This document shows positions 10,285-37,736 of a DNA stretch of 43,935 nucleotides, in pieces. The translations under genes were made by a program, and so were the position numbers. This DNA comes from a virus. Positions within the stretch are counted from its first letter, which is position 1. The number at the start of each line of letters is the position of its first letter. The stretch is taken from IMG/VR virus record IMGVR_UViG_3300031841_005775, positions 1 through 43,935 of that record; one strand, 5' to 3'. The notes under the pieces were generated by a model. The model ran no database searches and was not told the DNA's origin. It saw only the letters and a list, made by a program, of their open reading frames with translations.

Positions 10285-10305
10285 AAAACTTTTGCCTCGT
10301 TTTTA

Positions 10306-10971: not shown

Positions 10972-11789
10972 CCCCTTAGACTCCTTCTTTTTTCTTTTTC
11001 TGTAATTAATAAGGTTCTTTCTAATTCTGGATAACGCATACTGCATTCGATATCTCTTATACCCTTAACGAGCTTAAATAGTCCCGAAGGTTCTAAACTA
11101 CTTAAATGATCACTACCCCACATATTGTGATTAAGAGTAATATGTCTTTCTATCCAGTTAGCACCAAGAGCAACCGCTGCAAAAGTTGTGACTAAGCCAT
11201 ATTCATGACCGCTATATCCTATCTCAGAATTTTTCCATTTGTTTTTTAACCACTTAATATAGTTTAAATTCAGTTCGTTTATGGGGGAAGGATAAGTACT
11301 ATTAGTATGCATAATAATATCTGGGTTACAAGCCTCAATACATTTTTCAATTTCCTCTTCCGTACTCATGCCGGTAGAAATAATTAGGGTTGAAAAATTA
11401 TCTCTAGCATGTTTACACAAATCTAAATCTGTAATAAGTGCAGATGGTATCTTAGTAATCCCAGAATATTTTGACATAGTATCAGAGCTTGGAATATCCC
11501 ATACGCTACTGAAGAATATAATACCTTTATCTATAGAGTAATGGACTAGTTCAACTATCTGATCTTCACTGAACTCTATCTTTTTCTTGTAGTCTAAATA
11601 AGTCATAGACCCCCAAGGAGTATCCCTGATTTTGCCCTTTTGGGATTCCGGCACACACAAATCAGGTGTTCTTTTTTGTATTTTAACATAATCACATCCA
11701 GCAACAGCCGCTAAGTCTATTAACTTCTTGCAGTTTTCTATAGAACCATTATGGTTTATACCTATTTCTGCTATGATTTTTGTAGACAT
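10968..11789 (-). CDS. neuB: NeuB-type nonulosonic acid (sialic/legionaminic/pseudaminic) synthase lacking the SAF domain
   Basis: A 273-residue TIM-barrel enzyme with family motifs IIAEIGINHNGS, CDYVKIQKRTPDL, FFSSVWDIPS, LIISTGMSTEEEI, MHTNSTYPSP, IGYSGHEYG, WIERHITLNHNMWGSDH and SLEPSGL. NeuB-type enzymes condense phosphoenolpyruvate with an acylamino-hexose to make a nine-carbon acid. Full-length proteins are about 340-350 residues and end in a SAF (antifreeze-like) domain. This one stops just where that domain would begin (EKEKRRSLRG). It is first in the eleven-gene minus-strand cassette and diverges from the thioredoxin gene across 33 bases. I see no clear promoter or Shine-Dalgarno motif. 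Confidence 0.88.
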   Translation of the reverse strand: MSTKIIAEIGINHNGSIENCKKLIDLAAVAGCDYVKIQKRTPDLCVPESQKGKIRDTPWGSMTYLDYKKKIEFSEDQIVELVHYSIDKGIIFFSSVWDIPSSDTMSKYSGITKIPSALITDLDLCKHARDNFSTLIISTGMSTEEEIEKCIEACNPDIIMHTNSTYPSPINELNLNYIKWLKNKWKNSEIGYSGHEYGLVTTFAAVALGANWIERHITLNHNMWGSDHLSSLEPSGLFKLVKGIRDIECSMRYPELERTLLITEKEKRRSLRG

Positions 11790-16978: not shown

Positions 16979-19900
16979 ATGAAAAAACAAGCAAATAACA
17001 TATTTTCTATATTAGAAACAAATAAAACTTTACTTATAAAAACATACCCAGAAAATATTGCAAATATACGGATTGGAGAAACTGCTGTTTTTGAAATAGA
17101 GACAGAATCTTATAGATCGTCGGCAGTCAAGTATCAATGGCAAAGAGAGCGTCAGGACGATGATGGTAATTTTATATATGAGGATATACAAGGAGCAAAT
17201 GACAGAAGGTATTCCTTTGTTGTTTCATCAGAAAATCTTAATTCATCTTACAGGGTTGTGTGCACCAACGGATGCTCTCAAGTTGAAAGTAGTGTTAACT
17301 TAACTGATGGTAATATTTCTGCTCCGTATAATTTAAGTCTTACTGGGCCCTTGTCCTTGGAAGAGCAGCATATTGATGCGATAGTTGGAGCTATTTCTGC
17401 ATCAACTAATAACTACAACTCAGTGCACTATTACGAAATAGTAAATGACGATGGAAAGTTTTACATTGATGGTAACGTTTTGAAAAGTAAAGTTGGATTA
17501 AACTATGGTGAAGTAGGACCTGCAATAAATATTACTATTAAGGCTACAAATATATATGATTTAAGTATAACAAAAACTTTTCAAATAAGTCTTACCGAAA
17601 GAGCCCCTAATATATTTAGAAATACCAGATTCTATCCATATAATACTCGATCTTATGGCGCAAATGACGTTTGCAAACTAAATATAACATCTATAAATGA
17701 GTGGATTATAGATAATACTGTAGATATTTGTAGCGTTTATTACTGGCCAGACGGTAATTTTAGACCAGGACCTAATAACTATCAATACAATAGGGAAGAT
17801 TTATTTTTAGACCTACACGCAAGTAGATCAAGCGTTACTTCTCTGGGTTCTTTAAGTCAAAACGTGGTATTATCTGCTGGAAAACACATATTGTATTTTG
17901 ATTTATCAACCAATAATAGACAATATAATATTAACACTAAAAATTTAAAGCTTTCTGTAATCAACAAAAATTCTGGAGCTGTTGTATTTAATCAGATATT
18001 AGAAAATGTTTACGTGAGTCCTGTGGTAAATGCCATAAGTGTCACAAGACAAAGAATAGAATTAAATGTTGAAGATGCTGGAGAATATACGGTTTCTTTT
18101 AATAGTGTTCCTGAGATGGTTAATACGAATTATGATCACGGACCTATGATTGGAAGATTAAAATTAGTAGAAGAAATTGATGAAATACAGGAAGATAAAA
18201 AAATATACTTTACGGAACAGCCTGCCAGAATGGTGAACGGTAGTGTTATTGTATCTGCTGTAAGTACCACCAGTACAAATATACACTATATGATGCAGAG
18301 AACAGGTCCAAATGTAAATATTGACGATTATTATTCACCTGGTGGTGATTATGCAACAGGTCTAAGTGGTGATCAGGTCTTATTAGGATTAACCAACAAT
18401 ATAGACACTGATACTTATAGAGTAATAGCATTTGACGATAATGGTAACGCTACTATTAGTAATTTATTTATGTATAATGATTTCGAAACAGTAAGAATAA
18501 CTTGGGCAACTCCACAACAATCAACCGCCCAATCTGTTATAAGCGACCCTGAAAATATGCTAGAGGATATTAGTGTAGAGACAGTGGTTGAGGCTGGAGC
18601 GAATATCGTTGTAGCAAATAACCAACCTTGCGACAGAAGCATATTAGGTTTTAGCTGTGCGAATTTCAACTTATTAGACGATTCAGGGTATACACAATAT
18701 AGTACAACCACAGAGTCTACCCTGCAATATATTTTTAGTAATGAAACGAAAGATTTACTACTCTATATAGGTAGTCTAGGAGATTCTGTTAATTTATCAG
18801 CTTTAAAATTTGATGTTCCTTTTGAGATAGTTTGTAATAATTATTCTGCAAGGCATTGTGACTCAAGCGAAGTAACTCAAGCATTAAAACTGACTCAAGA
18901 CGGACTTGGTGTTGAAGGTAATCAGGGCTTTGGTATTATTAGATTTCCTGGAATACATAAAAGAATACTTGTTAGTTTAGTTAATCCTGGAGGGGGCACA
19001 TACTTAAGGTGGGGTGTTGATACTGGTAAAATGCCTCGTAATATATATCAGGTTTTGCCTTATTATAATGCTGATTGGTGGATATCGCCATCAACAGATC
19101 CTAATTTCATAGGACCTTACGAAAGAGAATATATAGTACCATCTGATGAGGTAGAGTACGAAGTTACCTTTGATCCTTGGGGATACCCTGATAAAGCTAT
19201 AATAAAAGCATATAGTACAGAAGATAATACAGAAATTGTTTTATTGGATACCGGTATAAAAGACCGTACAACAACTCAGTCAGACCCTGATTCTAATGGA
19301 TGCATAGAAATATTTGAGTATTGCCATGGTCCTTCACAGTATGCATATAAATACACAATAGTTAAACCATATGGATATGATAGAATAATAACAAGCACAG
19401 AAACGACTGAATCTGACACGGTAACTGGTCTTCATTTAAGTTTGGTGGCTACTGGCACTGGCACAGATACCGGAACAGGCACTGACACCGGAACGGACAC
19501 TGGCACTGACACCGGAACAGATAGCGGAACTGGCACTGACACCGGAACGGACACTGGCACTGACACCGGAACAGATAGCGGAACTAGCACTGACACCGGA
19601 ACGGACACTGGCACTGACACCGGAACGGGCACAGATACCGGAACTGACACCGGAACGGGCACAGATACCGGAACAGACACTGGCACTGACACTATAGCGC
19701 CTGTTGGTGCAACTCTATACTCCTGGGGAAGAAACAATGCATATCAACTTGGCGACGGCACAACAACCACCCGCTTTACACCAACACCAATATATCATCC
19801 ACTTGATAAAACATGGCAGTCAGTATCCGGTGGAAATTTCCATACCTTGGCTATAGACACTGACGGAAATCTATACGCTTGGGGAAATAACTCCTCTTAC

Positions 19901-20818
19901 CAACTTGGCGACGGCACAGCAACCAACCGCACCACGCCAACATCAATATTTCATCCGTTCGGTAAAACATGGGGATCAGTAACCGCTGGATGGTATTACA
20001 GCTTAGCCATAGACAGTGACGGACACATATACGCTTGGGGAGTTAACAATGTCGGCCAACTTGGCGAAGGCACAACAAGCACCCGCACCACGCTAACAAG
20101 GATCTCATCCGATCGATGGAGATCAGTAACCGCTGGGTCTAGCAGTAGCTTCGCCATAGACATTGACGGAGCTCTATACGCTTGGGGAAGTAACTCCTAT
20201 TACCATCTTGGCGACGGCACAACATCACGTCGCACCACGCCAACAAGGATATCTCACCCACTCGAAGAAACATGGAGATCAGTAACTACTGGAGGTGCTC
20301 ATGCCTTAGCCATAGACAGTGACGGAGACCTATACGGCTGGGGGAGAAACGATTACTGGCAAATTAGCAGATATGCACAGTCAGCTTATACTCCAACACT
20401 AATATCTTATCCACTTGATAAAAAGTGGCAATCAGTAACCGCTGGAAATTTCCATACCTTGGCTATAGATACTGATGGAAATCTATACTCTTGGGGAAGC
20501 AACTCTTACCAGCAGCTTGGACGGGAAGAAGCAGCTGGCCTCACCAATGAGGCAGGAAAGGTGAATCATCCACTTGGAAAAACGTGGAAATCAGTAACCG
20601 CTGGAAGTTATCACAGCTTAGCTATAGACATTGACGGAAATCTATACGCTTGGGGAGATAATACTACCGGAGAACTTGGGCTTGGAGAACCTGTCGTTTA
20701 CCCCTACACAAATAGCCGTACTCCGGCGTTAATAAATCACCCACTTGGAGAAGGAAAAACGTGGCAATCCGTAACTGCTGGGATCGATCATTCTATTGCT
20801 ATTAGTGCTCCCTCCTGA
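16979..20818 (+). CDS. Giant fibre-like protein: Ig/cadherin-like, Thr-Gly-Asp repeats, seven-repeat RCC1 propeller
   Basis: A 1279-residue modular protein. Residues ~22-115 look like an Ig-type domain (YQWQRER ... YRVVCTNG). Residues ~116-212 look cadherin-like. Residues ~213-820 contain several beta-rich segments I cannot name. Residues ~824-905 are almost pure Thr-Gly-Asp-Ser repeats, a long spacer. Residues ~913-1279 contain seven RCC1-type repeats, each with LYAWGxNxxxQLGDGT, W-SVTAG and LAIDxDG, the number needed for a closed seven-bladed propeller. The repeat part is visibly richer in G and C than the first half. Its position after another fibre-like gene suggests a phage tail fibre or adhesin whose RCC1 tip binds a receptor. 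It converges with the next gene, overlapping by 17 bases. Confidence 0.82.
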   Translation: MKKQANNIFSILETNKTLLIKTYPENIANIRIGETAVFEIETESYRSSAVKYQWQRERQDDDGNFIYEDIQGANDRRYSFVVSSENLNSSYRVVCTNGCSQVESSVNLTDGNISAPYNLSLTGPLSLEEQHIDAIVGAISASTNNYNSVHYYEIVNDDGKFYIDGNVLKSKVGLNYGEVGPAINITIKATNIYDLSITKTFQISLTERAPNIFRNTRFYPYNTRSYGANDVCKLNITSINEWIIDNTVDICSVYYWPDGNFRPGPNNYQYNREDLFLDLHASRSSVTSLGSLSQNVVLSAGKHILYFDLSTNNRQYNINTKNLKLSVINKNSGAVVFNQILENVYVSPVVNAISVTRQRIELNVEDAGEYTVSFNSVPEMVNTNYDHGPMIGRLKLVEEIDEIQEDKKIYFTEQPARMVNGSVIVSAVSTTSTNIHYMMQRTGPNVNIDDYYSPGGDYATGLSGDQVLLGLTNNIDTDTYRVIAFDDNGNATISNLFMYNDFETVRITWATPQQSTAQSVISDPENMLEDISVETVVEAGANIVVANNQPCDRSILGFSCANFNLLDDSGYTQYSTTTESTLQYIFSNETKDLLLYIGSLGDSVNLSALKFDVPFEIVCNNYSARHCDSSEVTQALKLTQDGLGVEGNQGFGIIRFPGIHKRILVSLVNPGGGTYLRWGVDTGKMPRNIYQVLPYYNADWWISPSTDPNFIGPYEREYIVPSDEVEYEVTFDPWGYPDKAIIKAYSTEDNTEIVLLDTGIKDRTTTQSDPDSNGCIEIFEYCHGPSQYAYKYTIVKPYGYDRIITSTETTESDTVTGLHLSLVATGTGTDTGTGTDTGTDTGTDTGTDSGTGTDTGTDTGTDTGTDSGTSTDTGTDTGTDTGTGTDTGTDTGTGTDTGTDTGTDTIAPVGATLYSWGRNNAYQLGDGTTTTRFTPTPIYHPLDKTWQSVSGGNFHTLAIDTDGNLYAWGNNSSYQLGDGTATNRTTPTSIFHPFGKTWGSVTAGWYYSLAIDSDGHIYAWGVNNVGQLGEGTTSTRTTLTRISSDRWRSVTAGSSSSFAIDIDGALYAWGSNSYYHLGDGTTSRRTTPTRISHPLEETWRSVTTGGAHALAIDSDGDLYGWGRNDYWQISRYAQSAYTPTLISYPLDKKWQSVTAGNFHTLAIDTDGNLYSWGSNSYQQLGREEAAGLTNEAGKVNHPLGKTWKSVTAGSYHSLAIDIDGNLYAWGDNTTGELGLGEPVVYPYTNSRTPALINHPLGEGKTWQSVTAGIDHSIAISAPS
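19449..19692 (+). repeat. Tandem repeat array coding Thr-Gly-Asp spacer
   Basis: Short units such as GGAACTGACACC and GGCACTGACACC are arranged in a higher-order unit of about 54 bases, in which two copies can be read between the GGAACAGATAGC segments. All units keep the frame and code TGTDTG-type repeats with occasional Ser. It is an internal repeat of the large fibre gene, not a CRISPR array. Confidence 0.9.
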
Positions 20819-23891: not shown

Positions 23892-24222
23892 TTTCCCTTA
23901 TTATGTCAGACTGAGAACATTCCGTCCAATATATCTCATACGCTACGGTATCTTCAAGGGCTTCAAACATATGCATTTCTCCAGGTCTGACTATAGTAGT
24001 TTGACTTTTTATTATAGTTGTTTCGTCCACTAAGTCATAATCATTCTTCCATACTTTTATTTTTAATTTACCGGACTCTATGAAAAAAGAGTTATATTTG
24101 TGCTCATGTTTATGTTTTGAGCAATAGCCTCCTTTGTTTACTTCTATTCTGTGCATAGAAATTCCGTTCTTATTAAATATATTACATGTGTTGCCCCAAA
24201 CTTTTCCTTCTATAACATTCAT
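23869..24222 (-). CDS. Single-domain cupin (sugar-phosphate isomerase-like)
   Basis: A 117-residue cupin. Motif 1 is HKHEHKYNSFFIESGKLKI, giving a HxHxxxxxxxxE-like metal site, and motif 2 is PGEMHMFEAL. The fold resembles the C-terminal cupin of mannose-6-phosphate isomerase/GDP-mannose pyrophosphorylase and small WxcM-type isomerases. In a sugar cassette it could isomerise or epimerise a nucleotide sugar, or only bind one. It has an ATGA overlap with the GT60-like gene. Confidence 0.8.
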   Translation of the reverse strand: MNVIEGKVWGNTCNIFNKNGISMHRIEVNKGGYCSKHKHEHKYNSFFIESGKLKIKVWKNDYDLVDETTIIKSQTTIVRPGEMHMFEALEDTVAYEIYWTECSQSDIIRENVGGKIQ

Positions 24223-25484
24223 TGCATTATATTTCCTTGTATCTGTTCTAACCAGCCCTTAGATTTAGAGTGAGGCCACACTATCCACTTAGATGGATAT
24301 TTTTTATCATTGAATTCTCTCCATAATTTAATATAATCATCGTCTTTCAATAATATCTCTATTTCTGTAATATCAGCATCTTTTCTGTATATTTCATTGC
24401 CTTCGCTGTCTTGAAAAATAACTGCCCAAAAATCATAATCTTGCTCTGTAAATTTGGATTTATCGATATCTATGCAATGTTTAAAGAATGTTGTAAGCTT
24501 TGATCGAAAATTTTCATCAGACATATTCATATTCTCTACATTTGGTGGTATTTTATCTACCACATCTTGAGTAATAGACCTGTCTGAAAAACAAATACCA
24601 GCATATTTTTCATACTGTCTTACAGTTCTTTTTTTCCCGAATCCATAATTACCAAATAAATTCATATTCGCATACTGACCATCAACTCCTAGTAACATTC
24701 TATTTCTTTTGTGCGATTTACTATTGCTCTTTGTCCAGTTATAATGATCGTCCCAATGTTTTGTTCTATTTTTTCTTGTGTATTCATGCCAAGTTATAAT
24801 TTCATTTGGATGGAAAAGATCATAACCATGCGTAAAAGCCCTAACGGCTATACTTATTTCTTCACCATGAAAATAGAATTCAGGATCATGCATAACTTCC
24901 TGAGAAAAGCAACCATCAGCAAAAGCAAAATGGGCGCTATAAAATCTAGCAGGTACTGGGTCATCTGTGTCATCCCACACATCAAATCTTGCCGGAAGAA
25001 AGAACACTGCACCTTCTGGTATAAATCTATCAAAATTCATTTTCCAACAGTGGTCTTCCCTGCCTTCAGGATATGTATCTGGATTGAAGCTAGGAGCATA
25101 CGCTGTCAATAAAGGCTTATCGTAGCCCTTTGCTCTTAAAGATTCAATCATATCTATTAACTTGCTGTCCCAATTCTCAACGAATCTATGATGACTATCT
25201 ATTTGCAGTGTATATTTCTGTCCGGAATATCTGCCCTGAACCATATTCCTGGCCCAGCAGACACCCTTGCTATCCATGAAATCTATATCAATAATTTCAA
25301 CATTTTTAGCAGAGCCAATTAGCTTGTCTTTATTCTCCCAAGAATCAGACTTTGAATTTTGCCAGGCTATGCATATATGGAGATTTTCTGGATTACTAGA
25401 ATTAATAACCATGTCATTTAAAGTATTATATATATCAGGATCCCTATAGCAAGCGATCTGAACAAAAATACTGTTGTTGGTCAT
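24219..25484 (-). CDS. GT60-like glycosyltransferase (GlcNAc-transferase family)
   Basis: A 421-residue protein. The ATG at 25484 is chosen because it lies about 40 bases after a predicted transcription start, while the upstream ATG at 25541 precedes it. It begins SIFVQIACYRDPDIYNTL, then LHICIAWQNSKS, KGVCWARNMVQGRYSG, TLQIDSHHRFVENWD (DSH metal site) and FYFHGEEISIAVRAFTHGYDLFHPN. These are the motifs of the GlcNAc family related to Skp1 hydroxyproline GlcNAc-transferase (GT60). It is the first gene of the minus-strand cassette. Acceptor and donor are unknown. Confidence 0.82.
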   Translation of the reverse strand: MTNNSIFVQIACYRDPDIYNTLNDMVINSSNPENLHICIAWQNSKSDSWENKDKLIGSAKNVEIIDIDFMDSKGVCWARNMVQGRYSGQKYTLQIDSHHRFVENWDSKLIDMIESLRAKGYDKPLLTAYAPSFNPDTYPEGREDHCWKMNFDRFIPEGAVFFLPARFDVWDDTDDPVPARFYSAHFAFADGCFSQEVMHDPEFYFHGEEISIAVRAFTHGYDLFHPNEIITWHEYTRKNRTKHWDDHYNWTKSNSKSHKRNRMLLGVDGQYANMNLFGNYGFGKKRTVRQYEKYAGICFSDRSITQDVVDKIPPNVENMNMSDENFRSKLTTFFKHCIDIDKSKFTEQDYDFWAVIFQDSEGNEIYRKDADITEIEILLKDDDYIKLWREFNDKKYPSKWIVWPHSKSKGWLEQIQGNIMQ

Positions 25485-25530
25485 AATGGTTAATGTAGGT
25501 ATTAGTATATTACTCTCGCACCCATGCTTA

Positions 25531-25558
25531 ATATTAATCAAAAAAACCGATTAGTCAA
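25531..25558 (-). promoter_or_regulatory. Sigma70-type promoter, minus strand
   Basis: Read on the minus strand, TTGACT (25558-25553) is followed after 16 bases by TAATAT (25536-25531). It drives the cassette beginning with the GT60-like gene, with transcription starting near 25524. It lies back to back with the plus-strand promoter; the two -35 boxes are 13 bases apart. Confidence 0.65.
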
Positions 25559-26060: not shown

Positions 26061-26292
26061 AACATTTGTGAACTCATTGTGGTTTCACATCTGGTCTGGT
26101 TTTCCTAAAAGCAGTCTGGAGCAAATAAGAGATAGGTATCAGATATGTATTGTGTGCGAATCATATAACATTAAAGAAAAAATATGTGAAGAATGTGGGT
26201 GCAATATTAGTAATAAAAAAGCTTTCCTTAATAAGTTAGCTTGGGCAGACCAAGAGTGTCCTTTAAAGAAATGGAAAAGAGTTGACAAATGA
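26041..26292 (+). CDS. Small phage zinc-ribbon protein
   Basis: An 83-residue protein with YQICIVCESYN and IKEKICEECGCNISNKK, two cysteine pairs that form a zinc ribbon, and a terminal ECPLKKWKRVDK. This CxxC...CxxCGC...CPxxKW pattern occurs in many small phage proteins of unknown role. The N-terminus (SLWFHIWSGFPKSSLEQI) is aromatic. The second ATG at 26047 is an equally good start. It is coupled to the macro-domain gene by an ATGA overlap. Confidence 0.7.
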   Translation: MLMLRLKTFVNSLWFHIWSGFPKSSLEQIRDRYQICIVCESYNIKEKICEECGCNISNKKAFLNKLAWADQECPLKKWKRVDK

Positions 26293-26870
26293 CTAGAATC
26301 CATAGTAAAATAATAAAGAAGAATAAAAAGCCTAACAATATCTTTATAGTGAACAATAGAGATATATTCGACGCAATAAAAGATAAAACCTCGTGCAATA
26401 ATAATGGTTGCACAGTAATAGTCCCGCATACTTGCGATAATAAAAACTTATTTAGATCTAGATTTGCGAATGAAATTGCAGCAAGATTTCCTATTGTTAA
26501 AGAAAATTTTCACATGCTTGGTGCCTCATCAAAACTAGGAACAAGTCAATATGTTTCTGTATTCAGGAATGCAAAATATAATTACGAAATAATATTCTGT
26601 AATATGATTGTAGAAAATATGAATACCGATATATCAAGAAATCTGAATTATGGAGCACTAGTTTATAGTATGGTTGATATTAAACATTACATCCATAAAT
26701 ACAAACAACTTAATGACAATATCAGGGTTGAAATTCATTGTCCTAAAATTGGCTCAGGGTCTGCTGGTGGTAATTGGCATTTTGTAGAAGCCTTGATTGA
26801 AGATATATGGAATGGTACTGATGTTTTTGCGTATTTCCCTAATAAGAAAGATAGCCATGAAAACCATTGA
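26289..26870 (+). CDS. Macro-domain protein (ADP-ribose-phosphatase-like)
   Basis: A 193-residue protein whose central part resembles phage macro domains: TVIVPHTCDNKN, FRSRFANEIAARFP, GTSQYVSVFRN, IFCNMIVEN, RNLNYGALVYSM, and the diagnostic CPKIGSGSAGGNWHFVEAL followed by LIEDIW. Related proteins bind ADP-ribose or remove phosphate from ADP-ribose 1''-phosphate, a by-product of RNA repair or NAD turnover. In phages they may reverse host ADP-ribosylation defence or recycle NAD pieces. The next gene overlaps its end by 14 bases. Confidence 0.72.
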   Translation: MTRIHSKIIKKNKKPNNIFIVNNRDIFDAIKDKTSCNNNGCTVIVPHTCDNKNLFRSRFANEIAARFPIVKENFHMLGASSKLGTSQYVSVFRNAKYNYEIIFCNMIVENMNTDISRNLNYGALVYSMVDIKHYIHKYKQLNDNIRVEIHCPKIGSGSAGGNWHFVEALIEDIWNGTDVFAYFPNKKDSHENH

Positions 26871-27123
26871 ATGGTTCTATTTGAGATTAAAAAATAAATA
26901 TAAAGAAGGCGATGTGGTACTAAAATCTTTAGAGTCCATACTAAATAATAGCAGAATGATATCTAAAGAAATATCTAAAGAATACATTGATAATGTATGT
27001 AGAAAACATTTTCAAGATTATGATTTAGATAAATGTGAAGAATTTACTTTCGGTTTTACTGATCAGGACCGTGAAAACTATAGAAAGTTTGCAATAGATC
27101 TTATAGAAGGGCTTTCATCGTAA
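26857..27123 (+). CDS. Small hypothetical protein
   Basis: An 88-residue helical protein (MKTIEWFYLRLKNKYKEGDVVLKSLESIL ..., shown only in part) that I do not recognise. The ATG at 26857 is preferred because the longer frame lies within the macro-domain gene. It ends TAATG with the next glycosyltransferase. No motif suggests a function. Confidence 0.55.
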   Translation: MKTIEWFYLRLKNKYKEGDVVLKSLESILNNSRMISKEISKEYIDNVCRKHFQDYDLDKCEEFTFGFTDQDRENYRKFAIDLIEGLSS

Positions 27124-28076
27124 TGGAAATATCTTTTATTATAATCACAAATTTAGGTAATGAGCCTAAGATTATCAATCAGATAAAATCTATTAATCTA
27201 CAAAATATTCCTAAGCATGAAATAATCATATCTGGCAAAATACCTAATGAAGATAAAAGGTTATTGCGTGAACTATCGGATCATATCTCTTTTGCAGATT
27301 GTGTCGAGTCAGCTGAAAACGGCGATCTAGGAACCATGAGAAACAGAGCTTGTGACATAGCTTCTTTTGAAAATCTTGTAATATCTGATAATGATATGCT
27401 TTTTAGTAAAAATTGGTATAGCAATCTTTTATCTACTGAGGCTTTTGATATTTTAACACCAAGAGTTTTACTGCCAGATGGTACTAGATTCTGGGACTAT
27501 TGTTGCTATCAAAGTCCTGTGCACGGACACGTAATCTTAAACCCAGAAGAAAAAGATGACTATCTATATATGTCTGGCGGACAAAGCTGGATAATGAAAA
27601 AGAAAGTTTTTGAAAAATATAGATGGGATGAAAATTTAAGAATATATAATATGTCAAATCTAACCGACTACGCTAACGGTAAACATAACGAAGATACTGA
27701 ATACAGCCAGAGATGTAGACAAGATTTTACTATATCTCATGATCATAATCTTATAGTTATACATAATGATTCATCATATACTAATATTGGCAGAATGATC
27801 TTAAGAAGGCATAATAGGGCCCCAAACACATGGTGTAAAGATATCAATCTACCGCAAAAAATATTACAAAGTTTCGCAGCAACACTCATACAATCAAGAC
27901 TCGTTGCAGAAGGTCTCGATGTGTTAAGGAAAATCGTGATAGATTACCCGTCTGATTCTAACCATATTCAAAAATACATAAACTCTATACACAATCAGTA
28001 TGGAGGAAAACTTCATGGTTCAGAATTTACATTTAATAATACTGTATATTCGGAAATTTTAGATTGCATAGCATGA
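27123..28076 (+). CDS. GT2-like GT-A glycosyltransferase with helical C-terminus
   Basis: A 317-residue protein. The N-terminus ISFIIITNLGNEPKI and EIIISGKIPNEDKR, then GDLGTMRNRACDIASFENLVISDNDML (given in part), show a GT2-type nucleotide-sugar domain with the DND metal site near residue 93. YMSGGQSWIMKKKVFEKYRWDE and HNEDTEYSQRCR match the acceptor and catalytic-base region. The last ~80 residues are helical and of unknown role. It starts the third glycan cassette. Confidence 0.75.
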   Translation: MEISFIIITNLGNEPKIINQIKSINLQNIPKHEIIISGKIPNEDKRLLRELSDHISFADCVESAENGDLGTMRNRACDIASFENLVISDNDMLFSKNWYSNLLSTEAFDILTPRVLLPDGTRFWDYCCYQSPVHGHVILNPEEKDDYLYMSGGQSWIMKKKVFEKYRWDENLRIYNMSNLTDYANGKHNEDTEYSQRCRQDFTISHDHNLIVIHNDSSYTNIGRMILRRHNRAPNTWCKDINLPQKILQSFAATLIQSRLVAEGLDVLRKIVIDYPSDSNHIQKYINSIHNQYGGKLHGSEFTFNNTVYSEILDCIA

Positions 28077-28834
28077 ACAATATATGTACAACAGTATTAA
28101 TGGGCGGACTAGGCAATCTGCTTTTTCAAATAGCTCATGCCTATACATATAGCCTTAGATTCAACAAGAGCTTTGAGTTGTATAAAAATCTATACCAGAA
28201 AGCTCATCATACAGAAATATCTGAATATTCGAATAACTTATTTAATAATATCCACCTTAAAGATTCTTCAGTAGACATGCTTTCTTCTTCTTACGTATAC
28301 AGAGAACAAAATTTTGGGTATCGAGAAATTAATGAAATAGCTGGCAATGTAATATTTCACGGATATTTTCAATCATATAAATACATTGAAGAATTTAAAC
28401 CAGAACTTTTACAGTTATTCAACATAAAAGATATTCAACAAAATCATAATACATGTTCTATTCATGTGCGAAGAGGAGATTATGTATCTCTCCCCGATCA
28501 CCATCCTTTACAAACTATTGAATATTATCAAAACGCAATCAACAAAATCGGAAAATCAAATAAATTTCATGTTTTCTCAGACGATATAGATTGGTGCAAG
28601 AATAATTTTTCTTCTTTTGATGCGGATCTAATATATAGCAGCAATAAAACCGCTACAGAAGATTTCCAAGACATGCTCACTTGTGAAAATCATATTATAG
28701 CAAACAGTACGTTTAGCTGGTGGCCTGCATGGATCATAAACAATAGAGTAATAGCTCCGAATAAATGGTTTGGTAATTTTTACAAGAACTATAATCAATC
28801 AGATCTAATACCTAAAGAGTGGACATTGATATGA
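28073..28834 (+). CDS. GT11 family fucosyltransferase (alpha-1,2-type)
   Basis: A 253-residue protein with the three GT11 motifs: TVLMGGLGNLLFQIAHAY at the N-terminus, CSIHVRRGDYVSLP, and ANSTFSWWPAWI. FHVFSDDIDWCK also matches. Bacterial GT11 enzymes move fucose from GDP-fucose to galactose in an alpha-1,2 bond, making H-antigen-like glycans. The ATG at 28073 forms an ATGA overlap with the previous gene, and the end forms another with the GT6-like gene. Confidence 0.92.
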   Translation: MNNICTTVLMGGLGNLLFQIAHAYTYSLRFNKSFELYKNLYQKAHHTEISEYSNNLFNNIHLKDSSVDMLSSSYVYREQNFGYREINEIAGNVIFHGYFQSYKYIEEFKPELLQLFNIKDIQQNHNTCSIHVRRGDYVSLPDHHPLQTIEYYQNAINKIGKSNKFHVFSDDIDWCKNNFSSFDADLIYSSNKTATEDFQDMLTCENHIIANSTFSWWPAWIINNRVIAPNKWFGNFYKNYNQSDLIPKEWTLI

Positions 28835-29508
28835 ATGTCGGACTACTAATTATTGCTACAAACAAATACATTAAATTTGTTCAACCGCTAATAACCTCAG
28901 CTGACAAGTTCTTTTTACCCAATGATGAAGTAACATATTTTTTGTTTACAGATAGTGCTGAAAATATACAAACATCCAGAAGAATAGAACATATCAATAT
29001 ACAACATCAACCTTGGCCGTACCCAACATTATATAGATATAAGCACTTTATAGAAAATCATAATAAATTTGATAGTATGGATTACCTATTCTATACTGAT
29101 AGCGATATGCTGTTCGTAGATTATGTTGATACAGAAATTATTGGAGATCTTGTTGGTACTATACATCCAGGCTTTATGGGCGGCAGAGGCACCCCAGAAA
29201 CTAATCCCAAATCATTAGCCTGCGTATATCCGCACGAACATATGAAATATTGCGCTGGCGGCTTTAACGGAGGCTCAAAAGAATCATTTTTAAAAATGTC
29301 TAAAACCATATCAGACAATATAAACACCGACTTAAAAAAAGATATAATTGCTGTATGGCACGATGAGAGTCACATGAATAGATATTTTATCGATCATCCA
29401 CCTGAAAAATTCTTAAGCCCCAGTTATTGCTATCCAGAGTCTTGGAACATTCCATTAAAGAAAAAATTATTGGCTTTAGATAAAAATCATAAAGAAATAA
29501 GATCATGA
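28831..29508 (+). CDS. GT6 family glycosyltransferase (ABO histo-blood-group type)
   Basis: A 225-residue protein that follows the ABO/GT6 family along its whole length: GLLIIATNKYIKFVQPLI, WPYPTLYRYKHFI, YLFYTDSDMLFVDYV (DSD), GDLVGTIHPGF, YCAGGFNGGSKESFL, AVWHDESHMNRYFID, LSPSYCYPES and KKLLALDKNHKEIR. Bacterial and phage GT6 enzymes add alpha-1,3-linked GalNAc or Gal to fucosylated galactose. It has no membrane anchor, as in bacterial members. It is directly coupled to the GT11 gene that would make its acceptor. Confidence 0.94.
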   Translation: MNVGLLIIATNKYIKFVQPLITSADKFFLPNDEVTYFLFTDSAENIQTSRRIEHINIQHQPWPYPTLYRYKHFIENHNKFDSMDYLFYTDSDMLFVDYVDTEIIGDLVGTIHPGFMGGRGTPETNPKSLACVYPHEHMKYCAGGFNGGSKESFLKMSKTISDNINTDLKKDIIAVWHDESHMNRYFIDHPPEKFLSPSYCYPESWNIPLKKKLLALDKNHKEIRS

Positions 29509-30140
29509 TATCAATATTGCTTGCTGTTTATAATGGCCAAAAATACATACATCAAAGTATCGAATCCATACTAGGTCAAACCTTTAGCGAGTGGGAGCTG
29601 CTGATTGGTTTCAATGGCACGACGGACAATTCAAAAAAAATAGTAGCATCTTATCAAGACAACAGAATAAAAACCTTCGATTATGGACAAGATAAGGGTA
29701 AGGCTAAAACATTAAATAAACTTGTAAAAGAAAGTCAATATGATTGGCTAGCCATGCAGGACGATGACGATATATGGTTAAACAATAAGCTTGCCATACA
29801 AAATCAATATATTAATGACTATGATGTTATAGGCACATATATTAAATACATTGATGAACAGGGGTATACTATTGGTGGACCTTCTTTAGCAAGCTCACAC
29901 AATGACATAAAAACTTTATCGTTATCTGGAATAAATCAAATAGCAAATAGTAGTTCTATTTTTTCTAAAGCTTGCATTGAAAAAGTAGGAGGATGGAAAG
30001 AAGACGTTGATGGTATTGAAGACTTTGATTTATGGAAAAGACTGCTTTTGGAACGATATGAGTTTTATAATGTTCCTAATTATTTAACGCTACATAGAAT
30101 ACATTCGGCTAGTAATTTTAATGCTAAATCAAAAAAATAA
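29505..30140 (+). CDS. GT2 family glycosyltransferase
   Basis: A 211-residue classic GT2 domain: MISILLAVYNGQKYIHQSI, LLIGFNGTTDNS, ALTLNKL-type helix (KAKTLNKLVKES), WLAMQDDDDIWL with the DDD metal site, and GGWKEDVDGIEDFDLW with the catalytic ED pair. FYNVPNYLTLHRIH ends the domain. It is coupled to the GT6 gene by ATGA. The sugar it transfers is unknown. Confidence 0.9.
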   Translation: MISILLAVYNGQKYIHQSIESILGQTFSEWELLIGFNGTTDNSKKIVASYQDNRIKTFDYGQDKGKAKTLNKLVKESQYDWLAMQDDDDIWLNNKLAIQNQYINDYDVIGTYIKYIDEQGYTIGGPSLASSHNDIKTLSLSGINQIANSSSIFSKACIEKVGGWKEDVDGIEDFDLWKRLLLERYEFYNVPNYLTLHRIHSASNFNAKSKK

Positions 30141-30158
30141 TTCAAAGGACCAGACTAT

Positions 30159-30893
30159 ATGTATGATGCTTATATCAATACAATCAAAAATGAATTGAAT
30201 AAGAATCCAGAATTGTGGAATTTTAAAAGAGATACAAACTATAGAGCCATATTAGAGCATGTCAATTTATCTCAAGCTCTAGCATATATAGAACTGTGTT
30301 TTAAGAAGTTTGACACAGATAAAAAAAGCGAGTGGGCTGATATCTTCAAAAAGAACGATATGTATGGCAATCCAATTCAGGAAAATTTAGGTAGCAATAT
30401 TGGAAATTTTTCTCCTTCGAATGCTAGATATCTATATCATTCATTGCTTATACTAAAACACTTGCAAAGCCTAGAGATTAAAAATATTGTAGAAATAGGC
30501 GGAGGATATGGTGGCTTGTGTTTATATATAAATTCTCTCTCAAACAACACGTATAATTATTCAATATTTGATCTCCCAGAAGTTATGCTCCTACAGGCAA
30601 AATATCTTACTGCACACAATATGCAATGTAATTTTTTAGATTTTCATTCACAATTACCAGATAAATTTTACTTGATTAGTAATTATTGTTATAGCGAAAT
30701 TCCTGATCTCAGTATTAGAAAAAAATATCAAAATGTGATTGATCGATCTGATGCAGGCTTTATGTTATGGAACGCGGACGCTATGAAAAGTGGAGCCTCT
30801 ATTAGCGAAACATTTGCTAATAAAAATATAACAACCAGGATTGAAAATCCTTTGACGGCTCCTGGTAATCTTGAGATATATTGGAGTAATTAG
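30159..30893 (+). CDS. Putative sugar O-methyltransferase (NanM-type family)
   Basis: A 244-residue protein. The SAM-binding glycine loop is NIVEIGGGYGGLCLYI, followed by YSIFDLPEVMLLQ (acidic loop) and FYLISNYCYSEIPD. These match the putative sugar O-methyltransferase family found in surface-polysaccharide loci. ENLGSNIGNFSPSNARYLYH fits the family's conserved helix before the SAM domain. AAAGGA precedes the ATG at a good distance. It probably methylates a sugar of the glycan made by the neighbouring transferases. Confidence 0.75.
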   Translation: MYDAYINTIKNELNKNPELWNFKRDTNYRAILEHVNLSQALAYIELCFKKFDTDKKSEWADIFKKNDMYGNPIQENLGSNIGNFSPSNARYLYHSLLILKHLQSLEIKNIVEIGGGYGGLCLYINSLSNNTYNYSIFDLPEVMLLQAKYLTAHNMQCNFLDFHSQLPDKFYLISNYCYSEIPDLSIRKKYQNVIDRSDAGFMLWNADAMKSGASISETFANKNITTRIENPLTAPGNLEIYWSN

Positions 30894-30899
30894 TATAGA

Positions 30900-31559
30900 A
30901 TGAATTATCTTTTATCATATCCAAGAAGTGGGAATTCATGGTTTCGTTATTGCGTAGAAAATATATGCAAACAAAGAACAATAGGATATCTTTATTCTGA
31001 TCTGAAGGATAAGGGCATTATGCCAGAGTATAGGGGTAATAATCATTACATACTAATTAAGCGCCACGAGACATCTGATATAGAAAATACTGTTAATAAC
31101 AAATTACTTTTTATACTTAGAGACTATAATGAAGTTATCATTAGACATCGTGGCAGCGACCATAATATCATCAAAGAACATGAAGAGAAACACTTGGATC
31201 CATTTCAGGGTGGCTCATTCAATTATATATCCACGCTAGAGTTTTACGAGCAGTTTATTGGAGATAAATTATTGATTTACTATGAGGATCTTGTGCAAAA
31301 TACGGAACAAATTCTTTATCAAGCTATATCTTTCTTAACTAATCAGGATCGTTCAGAAGACATTATAAACTTCACAAGACATATAGTGGAACACAAACAG
31401 AAATCTATTGCCTTATATGGCGCATCGAAAACAAAAGGTAATTTAAGCATAAAACATTCAGCACACATAAGCCAAAAGCAAAAAAAGATTTACTCTGAGT
31501 TTTTAAAGCAGCAATATTCTTTACTCTTTGAAAAATACCTATACAGATATGAACCTTGA
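30900..31559 (+). CDS. Sulfotransferase-like protein
   Basis: A 219-residue protein. NYLLSYPRSGNSWFRY is the 5'-PSB motif of the cytosolic-type sulfotransferase family (YPKSGTTW in relatives). LLFILRDYNEVIIRHRG matches the 3'-PB segment. LLIYYEDLVQNTEQIL is the third conserved block. It is shorter than animal enzymes, as is usual in bacteria and phages. It is co-transcribed with the methyltransferase before it and the GT8-like gene after it. Confidence 0.82.
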   Translation: MNYLLSYPRSGNSWFRYCVENICKQRTIGYLYSDLKDKGIMPEYRGNNHYILIKRHETSDIENTVNNKLLFILRDYNEVIIRHRGSDHNIIKEHEEKHLDPFQGGSFNYISTLEFYEQFIGDKLLIYYEDLVQNTEQILYQAISFLTNQDRSEDIINFTRHIVEHKQKSIALYGASKTKGNLSIKHSAHISQKQKKIYSEFLKQQYSLLFEKYLYRYEP

Positions 31560-32223
31560 TACTGGCGTTGTGTACTATCTATTCGGTAATAATTTTCCAA
31601 ACGAATTAGAAAATTCTGTTAATTCTATCAGGAATTACAACAATATACCAATAGCATTAATAACAGAACAACCAAAGCATGCTAAATGCAAATTATTCGA
31701 TATCGTCATAGAATCTATTTCTAAAAAGAAACATGGGTGGCACAAAAGAACAGAATCTCTTTTATTAACACCTTTCACGAACACCTTGCATCTGGATACC
31801 GACACTATTATTACAGGTAGCCTCGATTATGGGTTTAGTAAATCCCAATTGTTTAATCTAGCCTTATGCCATGCTCCAGCGTATTATGCTAAAACTTTTT
31901 TTGATGACACATCGGATAACAGTATTAAACCGATAAATGATGAACAAATTATATACAATGCTGGTGTTATTTTTTACAAAAAATGTGAAACAATATGGAA
32001 TATGATTAGTGCGTGGATAGAATACAACGAAAAATGCTCAACAATACAAGATCAATGTGGACTATCTAATGCTATAGAATCCATGAATATTAATCCTTTT
32101 GTTTTGAGCAAAGGCTGGAACTTTAGGGCGGGTCTATATGCTGAAGGCTATGGACCAATTAAAGTATGGCATTCAAGACAGAGATTAAGAAGCACGAATA
32201 ATAAAGGATTTTTTAGACTATGA
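31549..32223 (+). CDS. GT8-like GT-A glycosyltransferase
   Basis: A 224-residue protein starting at the ATG at 31549, just inside the end of the sulfotransferase gene. GVVYYLFGNNFPNELENS leads into a GT-A fold, and NTLHLDTDTIITGSLD provides the DTD metal site. IYNAGVIFYKK is the N-AGV motif seen in GT8-like enzymes, and PIKVWHSRQ supplies the late His. It probably transfers a sugar in the same glycan pathway; donor unknown. Confidence 0.68.
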   Translation: MNLDTGVVYYLFGNNFPNELENSVNSIRNYNNIPIALITEQPKHAKCKLFDIVIESISKKKHGWHKRTESLLLTPFTNTLHLDTDTIITGSLDYGFSKSQLFNLALCHAPAYYAKTFFDDTSDNSIKPINDEQIIYNAGVIFYKKCETIWNMISAWIEYNEKCSTIQDQCGLSNAIESMNINPFVLSKGWNFRAGLYAEGYGPIKVWHSRQRLRSTNNKGFFRL

Positions 32224-32789
32224 ATATTGAACAAATTATATCTTCTAGACCAGATACTACAAATATAGGAGGTAGTGCCCCCTGGAAAATGAGACACCTG
32301 TATGAGATATGCAAGAGATTACAACCTAATCTTATCATAGAATCTGGAACATGGAAAGGTAATAGTCTATGGCTACTTAGAAAAGCCTTTATCAATTCAG
32401 AAATACACTCATATGATATAGATTATAGTCATTTATTATGGAAAGATAAAACAATAACATATCATAATTATGATATATCTATTGATAACAAAAAATTTAA
32501 CCCGAAATACAATGATGTTATTTTTTTTGATGACCATATTAACCAAAAGGAAAGATTAGAATGGGCATACAACAATGGATTTAAAAACCTAGTTTTTGAT
32601 GACAATGTGCCATCTTCAAAATTAGAGGCTTTTGGTATGCCACCTATACCAACAATTTCAATGCTTCAAGAACAGAATCGAATCCCTAATTATGTAGATT
32701 ATTTTGTTATTCTAGATTATGATAATTCTGATATTTCAACCAGAAATAAAGGACAAACATATCTGACCTATCTCAAAATTAAAAATTGA
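32220..32789 (+). CDS. Class I SAM-dependent methyltransferase-like protein
   Basis: A 189-residue protein. LIIESGTWKGNSLWLLR is a motif I-like loop (ExGxxxGxS), IHSYDIDYSH carries the acidic ribose contact, and VIFFDDHINQKERLE fits motif IV of small Rossmann methyltransferases found near glycosyltransferases. ATGA overlap links it to the GT8-like gene. It is the last gene before an internal promoter. Methyl transfer to a sugar is inferred; the substrate site is not visible. Confidence 0.6.
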   Translation: MNIEQIISSRPDTTNIGGSAPWKMRHLYEICKRLQPNLIIESGTWKGNSLWLLRKAFINSEIHSYDIDYSHLLWKDKTITYHNYDISIDNKKFNPKYNDVIFFDDHINQKERLEWAYNNGFKNLVFDDNVPSSKLEAFGMPPIPTISMLQEQNRIPNYVDYFVILDYDNSDISTRNKGQTYLTYLKIKN

Positions 32790-32807
32790 CCTACGATACA
32801 AATACTC

Positions 32808-32836
32808 TTGACATCGCATGTCTTGTGTGCTACAAT
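32808..32836 (+). promoter_or_regulatory. Sigma70-type promoter (TTGACA-17-TACAAT)
   Basis: TTGACA at 32808-32813 and TACAAT at 32831-32836 are spaced by exactly 17 bases in the gap between two operon segments. Transcription would begin at about 32843, at or just before the next ATG at 32844. Confidence 0.85.
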
Positions 32837-32843
32837 AACTATT

Positions 32844-33014
32844 ATGAACAATGAACATCTATTCCATCCCGTAGTCGTCGGCATCATAGTAATGGGTATC
32901 TTGGGTCTAATTCAGGGATACATGGAATGCAAAGCCGCAGAAAAAAATCCAATTAAAGATCAGCAAACGTCTAAATGCAGCAACGATTATTTCTTCTTTA
33001 TACATTGGGACTAA
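32844..33014 (+). CDS. Small single-pass membrane protein (56 aa), possibly from a leaderless mRNA
   Basis: A 56-residue protein with one membrane span (HPVVVGIIVMGILGLIQGYM) and a charged, Cys-containing tail. The longer frame would start at the TTG of the promoter -35 and is therefore unlikely. From the ATG at 32844 there is no ribosome binding site, and the predicted transcript starts within about two bases of it. No family is recognised. Small phage membrane proteins can act in lysis or superinfection exclusion, but there is no evidence for either here. Confidence 0.55.
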   Translation: MNNEHLFHPVVVGIIVMGILGLIQGYMECKAAEKNPIKDQQTSKCSNDYFFFIHWD

Positions 33015-33017
33015 ATT

Positions 33018-33839
33018 ATGGAAAATGTATTAATAGATAATCATCTATTATTTTATTACCCATCTAATGATCCTGTTGTTTTGCAATTATCAAGGAACAA
33101 AATTCTCTTTGGTAAAGCAAACTTCGATATGCTTAATTTTTTTATCAAAGAAGATGGGGCGATTGTTGACTGTGGCGCACACATAGGGACCTTTTGCTTT
33201 ACTCCTGCCCATAATGGTACAGAAGTTATAGCAATAGATGGTGCTGTTAGAAATGCACAATGCTTAAATAAAACATTTGAAAATATGACAAATGTGATAG
33301 TGGAAAATTGCATTCTACTAGATAAAGTAAAGAACTGCACATTTTCTACAACCTATGGACCATTTGGTTACGCTAAAAGTGATCATACCGGTCTTGATAT
33401 TTCTGACACATTGGATAACATAGTATCTAGACATAATAAAAAAATATCGGGCATCAAATACGATATAGAAGGCAATGAGATAGACGCTATTAATGGATCT
33501 CTAGAAACAATAGGCAAATACAAACCGCCATTGTTAATAGAAGTTAATGGTCATTGTTTAAGAATGAATGATAGGAAACCATATGATCTATTTGATCTTT
33601 TGGATAAAATAAGCTATTCGTATTTCCTTCCAATACAAAATAAATTCCTGTCTATCAATAAAAATCACAAATTCCCATTTTGCGTAACAGATATTATATG
33701 CATACATAATGATAATAGACACGAGTACAATATAGAAATATTACCTTCGCTACAGGAAGAACAAATTAATAATCTAATACAGGAAAACTACAGCAAGTCT
33801 AATCAGGACTGTAGAAAATATTTTGAATATATATTATGA
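33018..33839 (+). CDS. FkbM-family methyltransferase
   Basis: A 273-residue protein with the FkbM pattern: GAIVDCGAHIGTFCF (SAM motif I), EVIAIDGAVRNAQCL (motif II), and GIKYDIEGNEIDAINGS, the family's conserved KxDxEGxE signature. FkbM proteins methylate sugar or polyketide hydroxyls and are frequent in polysaccharide loci. ATGA overlap with the next gene. The C-terminal ~80 residues (YFLPIQNKFLSINKNH ...) are less typical. Confidence 0.85.
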   Translation: MENVLIDNHLLFYYPSNDPVVLQLSRNKILFGKANFDMLNFFIKEDGAIVDCGAHIGTFCFTPAHNGTEVIAIDGAVRNAQCLNKTFENMTNVIVENCILLDKVKNCTFSTTYGPFGYAKSDHTGLDISDTLDNIVSRHNKKISGIKYDIEGNEIDAINGSLETIGKYKPPLLIEVNGHCLRMNDRKPYDLFDLLDKISYSYFLPIQNKFLSINKNHKFPFCVTDIICIHNDNRHEYNIEILPSLQEEQINNLIQENYSKSNQDCRKYFEYIL

Positions 33840-34366
33840 ACAGACTAAACAAACAAAGGGTTTATCTAGCAGGTGCTATAGATAGGGTGCCAGATAGAGG
33901 TACAACATGGAGAAGTGAAATCACTCCATTCTTAGACGATTTAGGATTAACAATATTCAATCCTATCACCAAGCCTACAGATGTTGGTCTTGAAGATCAA
34001 GACTCACACACCATCAAAGCGAAATTAAAATCGCAAAAAAGATACGATGAACTTAGTAGCATGATGAAAGTTATTAGGTCTGTGGATCTTAGGCTCGTAG
34101 ACATTAGTGACTTTATGATTGTTAATCTGGATCTAGAGATTCATCCTTGCGGTACTCTTGAAGAAATTTTCTGGGCAAACAGACAAAAAAAGCCGATACT
34201 TATAAGAATGGTTCAGGGTAAAGAGAATACGCCAGACTGGCTATTTGGAACCATACCTCACCAAATGATTTTTTCAAATTGGGACGAGATGAAAAACTAT
34301 TTAGTCAATATTAATGAAGCAGAGAATATAGAGTCTCATAAGCGGTGGTATTTTTTCTCGGTATAA
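33836..34366 (+). CDS. Nucleoside 2-deoxyribosyltransferase-like protein
   Basis: A 176-residue protein. RVYLAGAIDRVPDRGTTWR at the start and LTIFNPITKPTD resemble the nucleotide-binding part of the nucleoside 2-deoxyribosyltransferase-like fold. SDFMIVNLDLEIHPCGTLEEIFWANRQKKPILI (given only by its ends: DFMIVNLD and CGTLEEIFWA) supplies the conserved Asp and Glu. Such enzymes swap or release bases of deoxynucleosides or deoxynucleotides. It precedes a GMP reductase gene by three bases, pointing to nucleotide-pool control. Confidence 0.75.
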   Translation: MNRLNKQRVYLAGAIDRVPDRGTTWRSEITPFLDDLGLTIFNPITKPTDVGLEDQDSHTIKAKLKSQKRYDELSSMMKVIRSVDLRLVDISDFMIVNLDLEIHPCGTLEEIFWANRQKKPILIRMVQGKENTPDWLFGTIPHQMIFSNWDEMKNYLVNINEAENIESHKRWYFFSV

Positions 34367-34369
34367 ACT

Positions 34370-35464
34370 ATGAAAATAATAAACGAAATTAAGCTGGATT
34401 TTGACAATGTTTTAATCAAACCTAAAAGATCTACACTGTCTAGCAGATCAGAAGTAGACTTACTGAGAGAATTCACGTTCCCCCATTCAAAAAGAAAATT
34501 GAACTGCGTTCCTATTGTATCTGCCAATATGGACACAACCGGCTCAATGGAGATGGCTAGAGCATTATCAGGGTTTGATTGCATCACATGTTTACATAAA
34601 CATTATTCAGCTACTGATTTATTAAATTATTTCAGTGATCCACAAGATCACACCTTTTACTCAACCGGTATTTCTGAATCTGATATTGAAAAACTTACTA
34701 CAGTCTACGATAAATTAACTCACAAGCCCAATCTTTGCATAGATGTAGCGAATGGATATAGCGAAAAATTTGTACAAACAATTAAAAAAATCAGGGATTG
34801 GTATCCAGATATTATTATCATGGCAGGCAATGTCGTTACGCCAGAGATGACTGAGGAATTAATATTACACGGAGGCGTTGATATCGTTAAAGTCGGTATT
34901 GGTTCCGGTAGTGTCTGTACTACTAGATTAAAAACTGGCGTAGGATACCCTCAATTGAGTGCAATTATAGAGTGTTCAGATGCGGCCCACGGCCTTAATG
35001 GACATGTCTGTAGTGACGGGGGATGTAAAATAGCAGGAGATGTTTGCAAAGCATTTGGTGCTAATACTGATTTTGTGATGCTTGGAAGTATGCTTGCCGG
35101 CACAGATTGCTGTGAAGGAGAATGGCAATATGAATATAGATGTGTTAGCAAAAAAGGTGAATGGTGGCAGTCTGCAAATCCCGGATATGATACAGAAAAA
35201 AGAAAAACATCTTTGAAATTTTATGGAATGAGCAGCAAAGAGGCTATGGACAAACATAACGGAGGAGTCTCGGACTACAGAACAAGTGAAGGGCGTTGCG
35301 TTACTATTCCATATAAAGGCACAACACATTCAATCATACTAGATATACTTGGAGGATTACGTAGTGCGTGTACTTATGTTGGCGCAAGAAAGCTAAAGGA
35401 TCTACCAAAGAAAACAACATTTATATTAGTCAATGATACCCATAATAGAGTTTACGAAAAATAA
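34370..35464 (+). CDS. guaC: GMP reductase
   Basis: A 364-residue IMPDH/GMPR barrel. LDFDNVLIKPKRSTLSSRS at the start, VSANMDTTGSMEMA, then VKVGIGSGSVCTTRLKTGV with the catalytic Cys, YPQLSAIIECSDAAHG, SDGGC and FVMLGSMLAGTD follow GuaC. The end EGRCVTIPYKG, ILGGLRSACTYVGA and KTTFILV are GuaC-type and differ from IMPDH; no CBS domain is present. The enzyme converts GMP to IMP and ammonia with NADPH. In a phage it would shift purines from guanine to adenine nucleotides, which would suit an AT-rich genome. TAATG junction with the next gene. Confidence 0.93.
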   Translation: MKIINEIKLDFDNVLIKPKRSTLSSRSEVDLLREFTFPHSKRKLNCVPIVSANMDTTGSMEMARALSGFDCITCLHKHYSATDLLNYFSDPQDHTFYSTGISESDIEKLTTVYDKLTHKPNLCIDVANGYSEKFVQTIKKIRDWYPDIIIMAGNVVTPEMTEELILHGGVDIVKVGIGSGSVCTTRLKTGVGYPQLSAIIECSDAAHGLNGHVCSDGGCKIAGDVCKAFGANTDFVMLGSMLAGTDCCEGEWQYEYRCVSKKGEWWQSANPGYDTEKRKTSLKFYGMSSKEAMDKHNGGVSDYRTSEGRCVTIPYKGTTHSIILDILGGLRSACTYVGARKLKDLPKKTTFILVNDTHNRVYEK

Positions 35465-37049: not shown

Positions 37050-37736
37050 ATGCGACTAATTTCTGCTATTCAAAACAATATTACCATAGATAATATTAAA
37101 TATGCTCAAAATTTTGAGTATATGAAAAGTTCGTACTCATTAATGAGTTTTCCAGAAATAGGCGATATAGATCTTTTTAGAATAGTAGATAACCCACCCG
37201 CTAATTCATCAGAAACAACTATCGACGAACTTCAAATAATATCTAGAATGGCAAATAATAGATCTCAGCAAGACATTGATCTTGTCTATCAAGTAGATTA
37301 TGAACCTCTCGGTATTTTTTATCCGGTAATAGAAGAGAATAATCTTGTTTTTGATGAAAATTTATTTTTTACATCTTACTACAAATGCGTCAGTGCTATA
37401 ATAGACCATCTCAAATTTTTCTATAACAGAGCTAGACCATTTCAAATAGCAGAGCATCATAATATTCACATTGATAGGATAATCACGAAAACCCATAAAA
37501 CCCCATCATATCCCAGCGGACACACAATGTATGCTGCTCTAGCGGCAGCTATTTTAACAGATGACTACCCAGAACATAAAACTAAATTTGACGCATTGGT
37601 TGACCAGTGTGGAACAGCCAGGGTGTTACAGGGTGTTCATTATCCATCCGACAACGAAGCATCTAAACGTATAATGAGTACCATATATCCAAGTATTAAG
37701 TCATATTTTACACAAAGGAGAAAAAATGAACTATAA
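37050..37736 (+). CDS. Soluble PAP2-type phosphatase / haloperoxidase-fold protein
   Basis: A 228-residue protein with all three PAP2 motifs: KFFYNRARPFQIA (phosphate contact), YPSGHTMYAA, and ARVLQGVHYPSDNEA with the catalytic His. No membrane spans are seen, so it resembles soluble class A acid phosphatases and not lipid phosphatases. It would remove phosphate from small molecules, perhaps nucleotides or sugar phosphates. The start follows two bases after the previous stop, and its end overlaps the next gene by 11 bases. Confidence 0.87.
   Translation: MRLISAIQNNITIDNIKYAQNFEYMKSSYSLMSFPEIGDIDLFRIVDNPPANSSETTIDELQIISRMANNRSQQDIDLVYQVDYEPLGIFYPVIEENNLVFDENLFFTSYYKCVSAIIDHLKFFYNRARPFQIAEHHNIHIDRIITKTHKTPSYPSGHTMYAALAAAILTDDYPEHKTKFDALVDQCGTARVLQGVHYPSDNEASKRIMSTIYPSIKSYFTQRRKNEL

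Follow-up and report, generated by a model that had tools for sequence, protein, structure and literature searches.

In a 43,935-base stretch of viral DNA (the window), probably a fragment of a phage genome, a gene of the alpha-1,2-fucosyltransferase family (GT11) adjoins a gene for an ABO-type transferase (GT6). Chance is ruled out as an account of this pairing, and the two genes make up a real two-step module of a familiar type that probably functions. Our favored reading, held with moderate confidence and built on sequence comparison and structural modeling, is that the two products would act one after the other in a single glycan-capping pathway, whose genes sit on an exchangeable phage cassette. 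The genes concerned and their surroundings are as follows.

26289-26870, plus strand: conserved left flank (PHROG 335, phosphatase), 26-42% identical to its counterparts at this site in related phages
26868-33835, no strand assigned: variable glycosylation island containing the pair, from comparison with the related loci L315-L321
27123-28076, plus strand: GT2a, a weak GT2-like gene (PF00535, E 0.0034, below cut-off)
28073-28834, plus strand: GT11 gene, alpha-1,2-fucosyltransferase family, 253 aa (PF01531, PHROG 2644, model)
28831-28834, plus strand: ATGA stop/start overlap of GT11 and GT6, read from the sequence
28831-29508, plus strand: GT6 gene, ABO-type transferase of the DxD (metal) type, 225 aa (PF03414, PHROG 3317, model, residue map)
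29505-30140, plus strand: GT2b, a GT2 gene (PF00535, 74.7 bits)
30159-30893, plus strand: sugar O-methyltransferase-like gene (TIGR04371, 50.4 bits, cut-off 44)
30900-31559, plus strand: sulfotransferase-like gene, weak (PF00685, 16.4 bits, below the cut-off of 22)
31528-32223, plus strand: glycosyltransferase-like gene, weak, best match Mannosyl_trans3 (PF11051, E 0.037, below cut-off)
32220-32789, plus strand: methyltransferase-like gene, weak (PF04989, E 0.015, below cut-off)
33018-33839, plus strand: FkbM methyltransferase (PF05050, 33.2 bits)
33836-35464, plus strand: conserved right flank, nucleoside deoxyribosyltransferase-like and IMP dehydrogenase-family genes, from identity at the site

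The preliminary description had reported that the two genes overlap by ATGA and that both keep their family motifs, and each observation was borne out: both reading frames are intact across the overlap, and four motifs were found in each product. Four-base ATGA overlaps also join GT2a to GT11 (at 28073) and GT6 to GT2b (at 29505), making GT2a-GT11-GT6-GT2b a single chain of four transferase genes.

The GT6 product belongs to its family by profile, fold and active-site residues. It matched PF03414 with an E value of 2.6e-40 (138.6 bits, cut-off 25) and was assigned to PHROG 3317; with 206.8 bits against the cut-off of 250 for NCBIfam NF041524, a named GT6 subset, it falls outside that subfamily. 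The protein carries the motifs DSD, HPGF, CAGGFNGG and WHDESHMN, and its AlphaFold2 model (mean pLDDT 97.0) superposes on the human ABO and BoGT6a structures with a TMq of about 0.93-0.95, identifying a GT-A fold. Residues D90, D92, H112, G114, T121 and G144 correspond to D211, D213, H233, G235, T245 and G268 of human GTA, and W176, H177, D178, E179, K218, H220 and R224 to W300, H301, D302, E303, K346, H348 and R352. The metal-binding Asp pair, the acceptor residues His233 and Trp300, the catalytic Glu303 (E179) and the C-terminal Lys346, His348 and Arg352 are therefore all kept, with W176, H112, K218 and R224 lying in the donor and acceptor sites. Loss of donor-binding residues, which had been proposed as grounds for doubting the pathway, was looked for in the model, and none was lost. 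Some of the residue roles used here are general knowledge of the GT6 family. Others were taken from published work (PMC4202792, PMC3961637).

The window protein has Gly at GTA positions 235 and 268, matching the A enzyme, which uses GalNAc, and its Ala at position 266 matches that of BoGT6a, another GalNAc transferase; this pattern suggests that GalNAc is a likelier donor than Gal. Human GTA and GTB thus share with the phage protein the DxD motif, the A-type residues at 235 and 268, and the C-terminal Lys/His/Arg residues that contact the donor phosphate, but the human ABO enzyme is a type II membrane protein with a stem and only about 32% identical, and the phage GT6 has Ala 266 and Pro 326. 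Among relatives with solved structures, BoGT6a of Bacteroides ovatus is closest in sequence (34% identity when aligned by Foldseek) and is alike in fold and acceptor-site residues, although it is a metal-independent NxN enzyme whereas the window protein has DSD. It makes A-antigen-like products from 2'-fucosyllactose (PMC3961637). The DxD type was found in 133 of 134 viral GT6 domains, the exception coming from an unverified fecal contig, while the 78 cellular domains included 40 with NxN and 36 with DxD. In published work a bacterial GT6 with DxD was metal-dependent, and NxN accompanied metal independence (PMC3961637). That viral GT6 genes are of the DxD type, unlike the characterized NxN bacterial enzymes, is an apparently new observation. 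Outside viruses, DxD-type GT6 is frequent in MAGs of Dependentiae/Babeliales and Chlamydiae (loci L108-L124), mostly without a nearby GT11. A close kinship between the human ABO gene and phage GT6 was also considered and not adopted; the trees did not fix the placement, and one joining ABO to the NxN group even scored higher.

The GT11 product matched PF01531 over residues 119-251 (E 1.1e-25, 90.9 bits, cut-off 23.9) and PHROG 2644 over residues 10-252. Its motifs are GGLGNLLFQ, HVRRGDY, SDD and NSTFSWW, the second of which is the HxRRxD motif of the family. The AlphaFold2 model (mean pLDDT 92.8) has the GT-B fold of GDP-fucose-type enzymes, its nearest folds being the GT-B fucosyltransferases POFUT1, FUT8 and NodZ at a TMq of only 0.43-0.58.

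GT6 had been described as rare outside animals and a few bacteria and phages, and this proved wrong: the family is present in 71 of 50,697 phage records and in hundreds of viral and bacterial contigs, including 123 IMG/VR stretches in one scan and 198 stretches of the GTDB genome set. The literature of 2014 counted GT6 in two cyanophages (PMC3961637). Nor is the arrangement itself unprecedented, since the isolated T4-like cyanophages Bellamy, B23, S-CAM9, SynMITS9220M01 and DSL-LC02 carry the same two families, adjacent, in the same order and overlapping by 1-4 bases, and GenBank already labels these genes as glycosyltransferases, in some cases with the family named. An epimerase gene often lies upstream of these pairs, and DSL-LC02 has a GDP-fucose synthase gene near its pair. 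The cyanophage GT6 proteins group in a well-supported clade of their own and are 29-34% identical to the window protein. The phage-record GT6 proteins nearest to it are those of 635-642 kb phages, and a backbone kinship of the window with these phages gained no support from the clamp-loader gene; a megablast search of window positions 1-25000 against the phage records gave no match.

Linkage across many loci argues that GT11 and GT6 are coupled. Among loci picked by likeness to the window GT6, a GT11 lies within 6 kb of GT6 in 66 of 80 viral loci, compared to 3 of 36 viral NeuB control loci (p 1e-14), and after dereplication in 37 of 49 compared to 2 of 26 (p 1e-8). Direct adjacency is confined to 6 of the 66 viral loci holding both genes. 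In cellular GT6 loci, GT11 is present in 46 of 80, and in 23 the two either adjoin each other on one strand or lie within the same ORF. Single-ORF fusions of GT6 and GT11 occur in a Planctomycetota MAG (L169, 5998-7629) and a Hoeflea MAG (L170, 5416-7590); each of these proteins might make a blood-group-like motif on its own. In the GT11 tree, a single clade of the viral GT11 proteins that adjoin GT6 was rejected (AU p 0.0005), ruling out a single viral origin of the adjacent pair, though the window GT11 and that of locus L004, taken alone, were not separated (p 0.47). It follows that pairing, or replacement of the partner, has happened on more than one occasion. Starting from GT11 seeds, GT6 was nearby in 1 of 15, a rarity expected if GT6 depends on GT11 and not the reverse. 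A cyanophage set anchored on GT25 showed GT11 to be no commoner with GT6 (16 of 39) than without it (22 of 41); in this set, though, many GT6 genes lie so close to the locus edge that any upstream GT11 would be lost, which partly accounts for the result.

The gene that follows GT6 is linked to it as well. Relatives of GT2b were found in 36 of 160 GT6 loci and in 0 of 131 control loci, in both phages and bacteria, and in 33 loci GT2b, GT11 and GT6 occur together in shuffled gene order, suggesting a possible unit of three, GT2-GT11-GT6. The matches of GT2b are unspecific, falling on several GT2 enzymes that are unrelated to one another; by analogy with the GT2 enzyme of the O86-like route, GT2b could be a candidate maker of the galactose acceptor. 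GT2 domains are also fused to GT6 in L107 (2-1354), L016 (4660-6672), L102 (14227-15828) and L140, and one of the first three fusions sits in the 642-kb phage record LR756502. The GT2 part of the L107 fusion, in the same ORF as GT6, resembles GT2a (30% in tblastn).

Comparison with related phages placed the pair in a variable island at a fixed site, a location absent from the preliminary description and seemingly new. The window shares backbone genes with the records G045, G058, G059, G060 and G074; on the right flank, the deoxyribosyltransferase-like gene is 70-74% identical and the IMP dehydrogenase-family gene 46-76% identical at the same site (L315/L316, L317, L318, L320), and across the five records the IMP dehydrogenase-family protein is 48-77% identical. 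Between the flanks, where the window has at least eight sugar-related genes, related phages carry a UDP-galactopyranose mutase, aminotransferases, a GDP-mannose dehydratase-family protein and other GT2 genes, and G058 and G074 have almost nothing. Because related phages hold other sugar genes or almost nothing at this site, the pair is best described as cargo of the island. None of the five related records had a GT6 match, an absence of limited weight because the records may be fragments, although G060 spans 244 kb. Beside the island, a PAP2-superfamily phosphatase gene (37050-37736, plus strand) is conserved in related phages.

From these comparisons we infer the donors, the acceptor, the order of steps, the product and its location on virion or host. 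GT11 would most likely transfer alpha-1,2-linked L-fucose, or a close GDP-deoxysugar, onto a galactose-type acceptor that the adjoining GT2b may supply; GT6, with a divalent metal, would next attach alpha-1,3-linked GalNAc (Gal being the less likely choice) to that same sugar and so create an A/B-antigen-like tip. The pair would be exchangeable cargo of a large tailed phage, at a site where related phages hold other sets of sugar genes. A described parallel is E. coli O86, whose B-like repeat is built by WbnH, WbnJ, WbnK and WbnI in sequence (PMC4506291, PMC4202792) and whose WbnJ, GT11 fucosyltransferase and WbnI form a sequential GT11 and GT6 set, but there the genes lie in a chromosomal O-antigen operon with lipid-linked assembly, unlike the phage pair. 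A gene for GDP-fucose synthesis (gmd) gave no match within the window; gmd scored above the NCBIfam cut-off in 5 of 21 records searched (P-SSM2, ACG-2014f, DSL-LC02 and two IMG/VR records), all of them GT6-bearing. Of the two-step A/B-like synthesis put forward in the preliminary description, the coupled GT11-then-GT6 pathway is well supported by the ATGA overlap, the linkage, the recurrence with different GT11 lineages, the two fusions elsewhere and the intact residues, whereas the accompanying claim of GT6 rarity falls.

The product could cap the virion or the surface of the infected host, and we slightly prefer the virion because no lipid-linked export genes were recognized and fibre-like genes lie close by. 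Remodeling of the host's surface polysaccharide by the pair, for instance to keep out rival phages or alter grazing, is a near-equal rival that we judge quite possible, if short of even. Such remodeling is the usual suggestion for cyanophage LPS genes, and clusters of cyanophage glycosyltransferase genes, with GDP-fucose genes among them, have been interpreted in this way (PMC9602691); the same chemistry operates in the E. coli O86 O-antigen (PMC4202792), and the widespread bacterial GT6-GT11-GT2b loci would act on the bacterium's own glycans. Relocation of the product to the cell surface would, however, need host machinery, as the window proteins scanned (a part of the ORFs for Pfam) included no recognizable flippase, polymerase or lipid-linked initiating transferase. 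The most far-reaching version of the virion reading, in which a complete GT2-GT11-GT6 set lets a jumbo phage dress its own virion proteins with an ABO-type trisaccharide and is one of several interchangeable glycan-coat cassettes at a fixed site, strikes us as improbable; if true, related phages would wear different sugar coats.

GT11 and GT6 might instead perform unrelated steps of a larger glycan, GT11 transferring a sugar such as fucose or colitose and GT6 acting on a different residue, with no A/B-like motif made. Fucose is not certain as the GT11 donor, because GT11-type enzymes, as we place them, include the colitosyltransferase WbgN. This broader donor use (PMC12723683), the number of sugar-related genes in the same island and the lack of a positive association in the GT25-anchored set are consistent with separate steps, but the GT6-GT11 fusions, the repeated pairing with different GT11 lineages and the acceptor-site residues that the window protein has in common with the ABO and BoGT6a enzymes argue against them, and we regard this alternative as rather unlikely. 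Decay of the pair into non-functional cargo is very improbable: its one favorable point is that donor-synthesis genes are absent from this fragment, against which stand intact frames, conserved catalytic residues, confident models and a gapless overlap chain of transferase genes. If consecutive capping gives the predicted product, the capacity for ABO-type antigen synthesis would have a reservoir in phages, with metal-type GT6 enzymes unlike the characterized bacterial ones. The island also offers related phages with different sets of sugar genes at one site, and these differences make the choice between virion and host as the target of phage glycosyltransferases testable by comparison.

Several other glycan-related genes were seen in the window. 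A nonulosonic (sialic/legionaminic-type) acid cluster on the minus strand (4245-11789) encodes NeuB, a NeuA-like cytidylyltransferase, a DegT aminotransferase and a Gfo/Idh oxidoreductase, and, judged by eye, two of its ORFs have sialyltransferase-like motifs. The cluster resembles a second variable island, with L315 and L322 almost empty between the same backbone genes. A GT60-family gene (24219-25541, minus strand; PF11397, E 4e-75) lies near an HtrL/YibB-like gene and is conserved in related phages without GT6. We take GT60 to be a family of polypeptide alpha-GlcNAc transferases, making its product a possible candidate for a protein-glycosylating phage enzyme. A Skp1/mucin-like pathway with a protein-linked core made by GT60 was considered and set aside: among GT6-bearing records GT60 occurs only in the window, and it therefore lies outside the GT6 module. 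Lastly, a fibre-like protein of 1279 aa (16979-20818, plus strand) has Thr-rich TDTGTG repeats (about 19446-19692) and C-terminal RCC1-like repeats; its gene has a G+C content above its surroundings, and the protein is a candidate O-glycosylation substrate.
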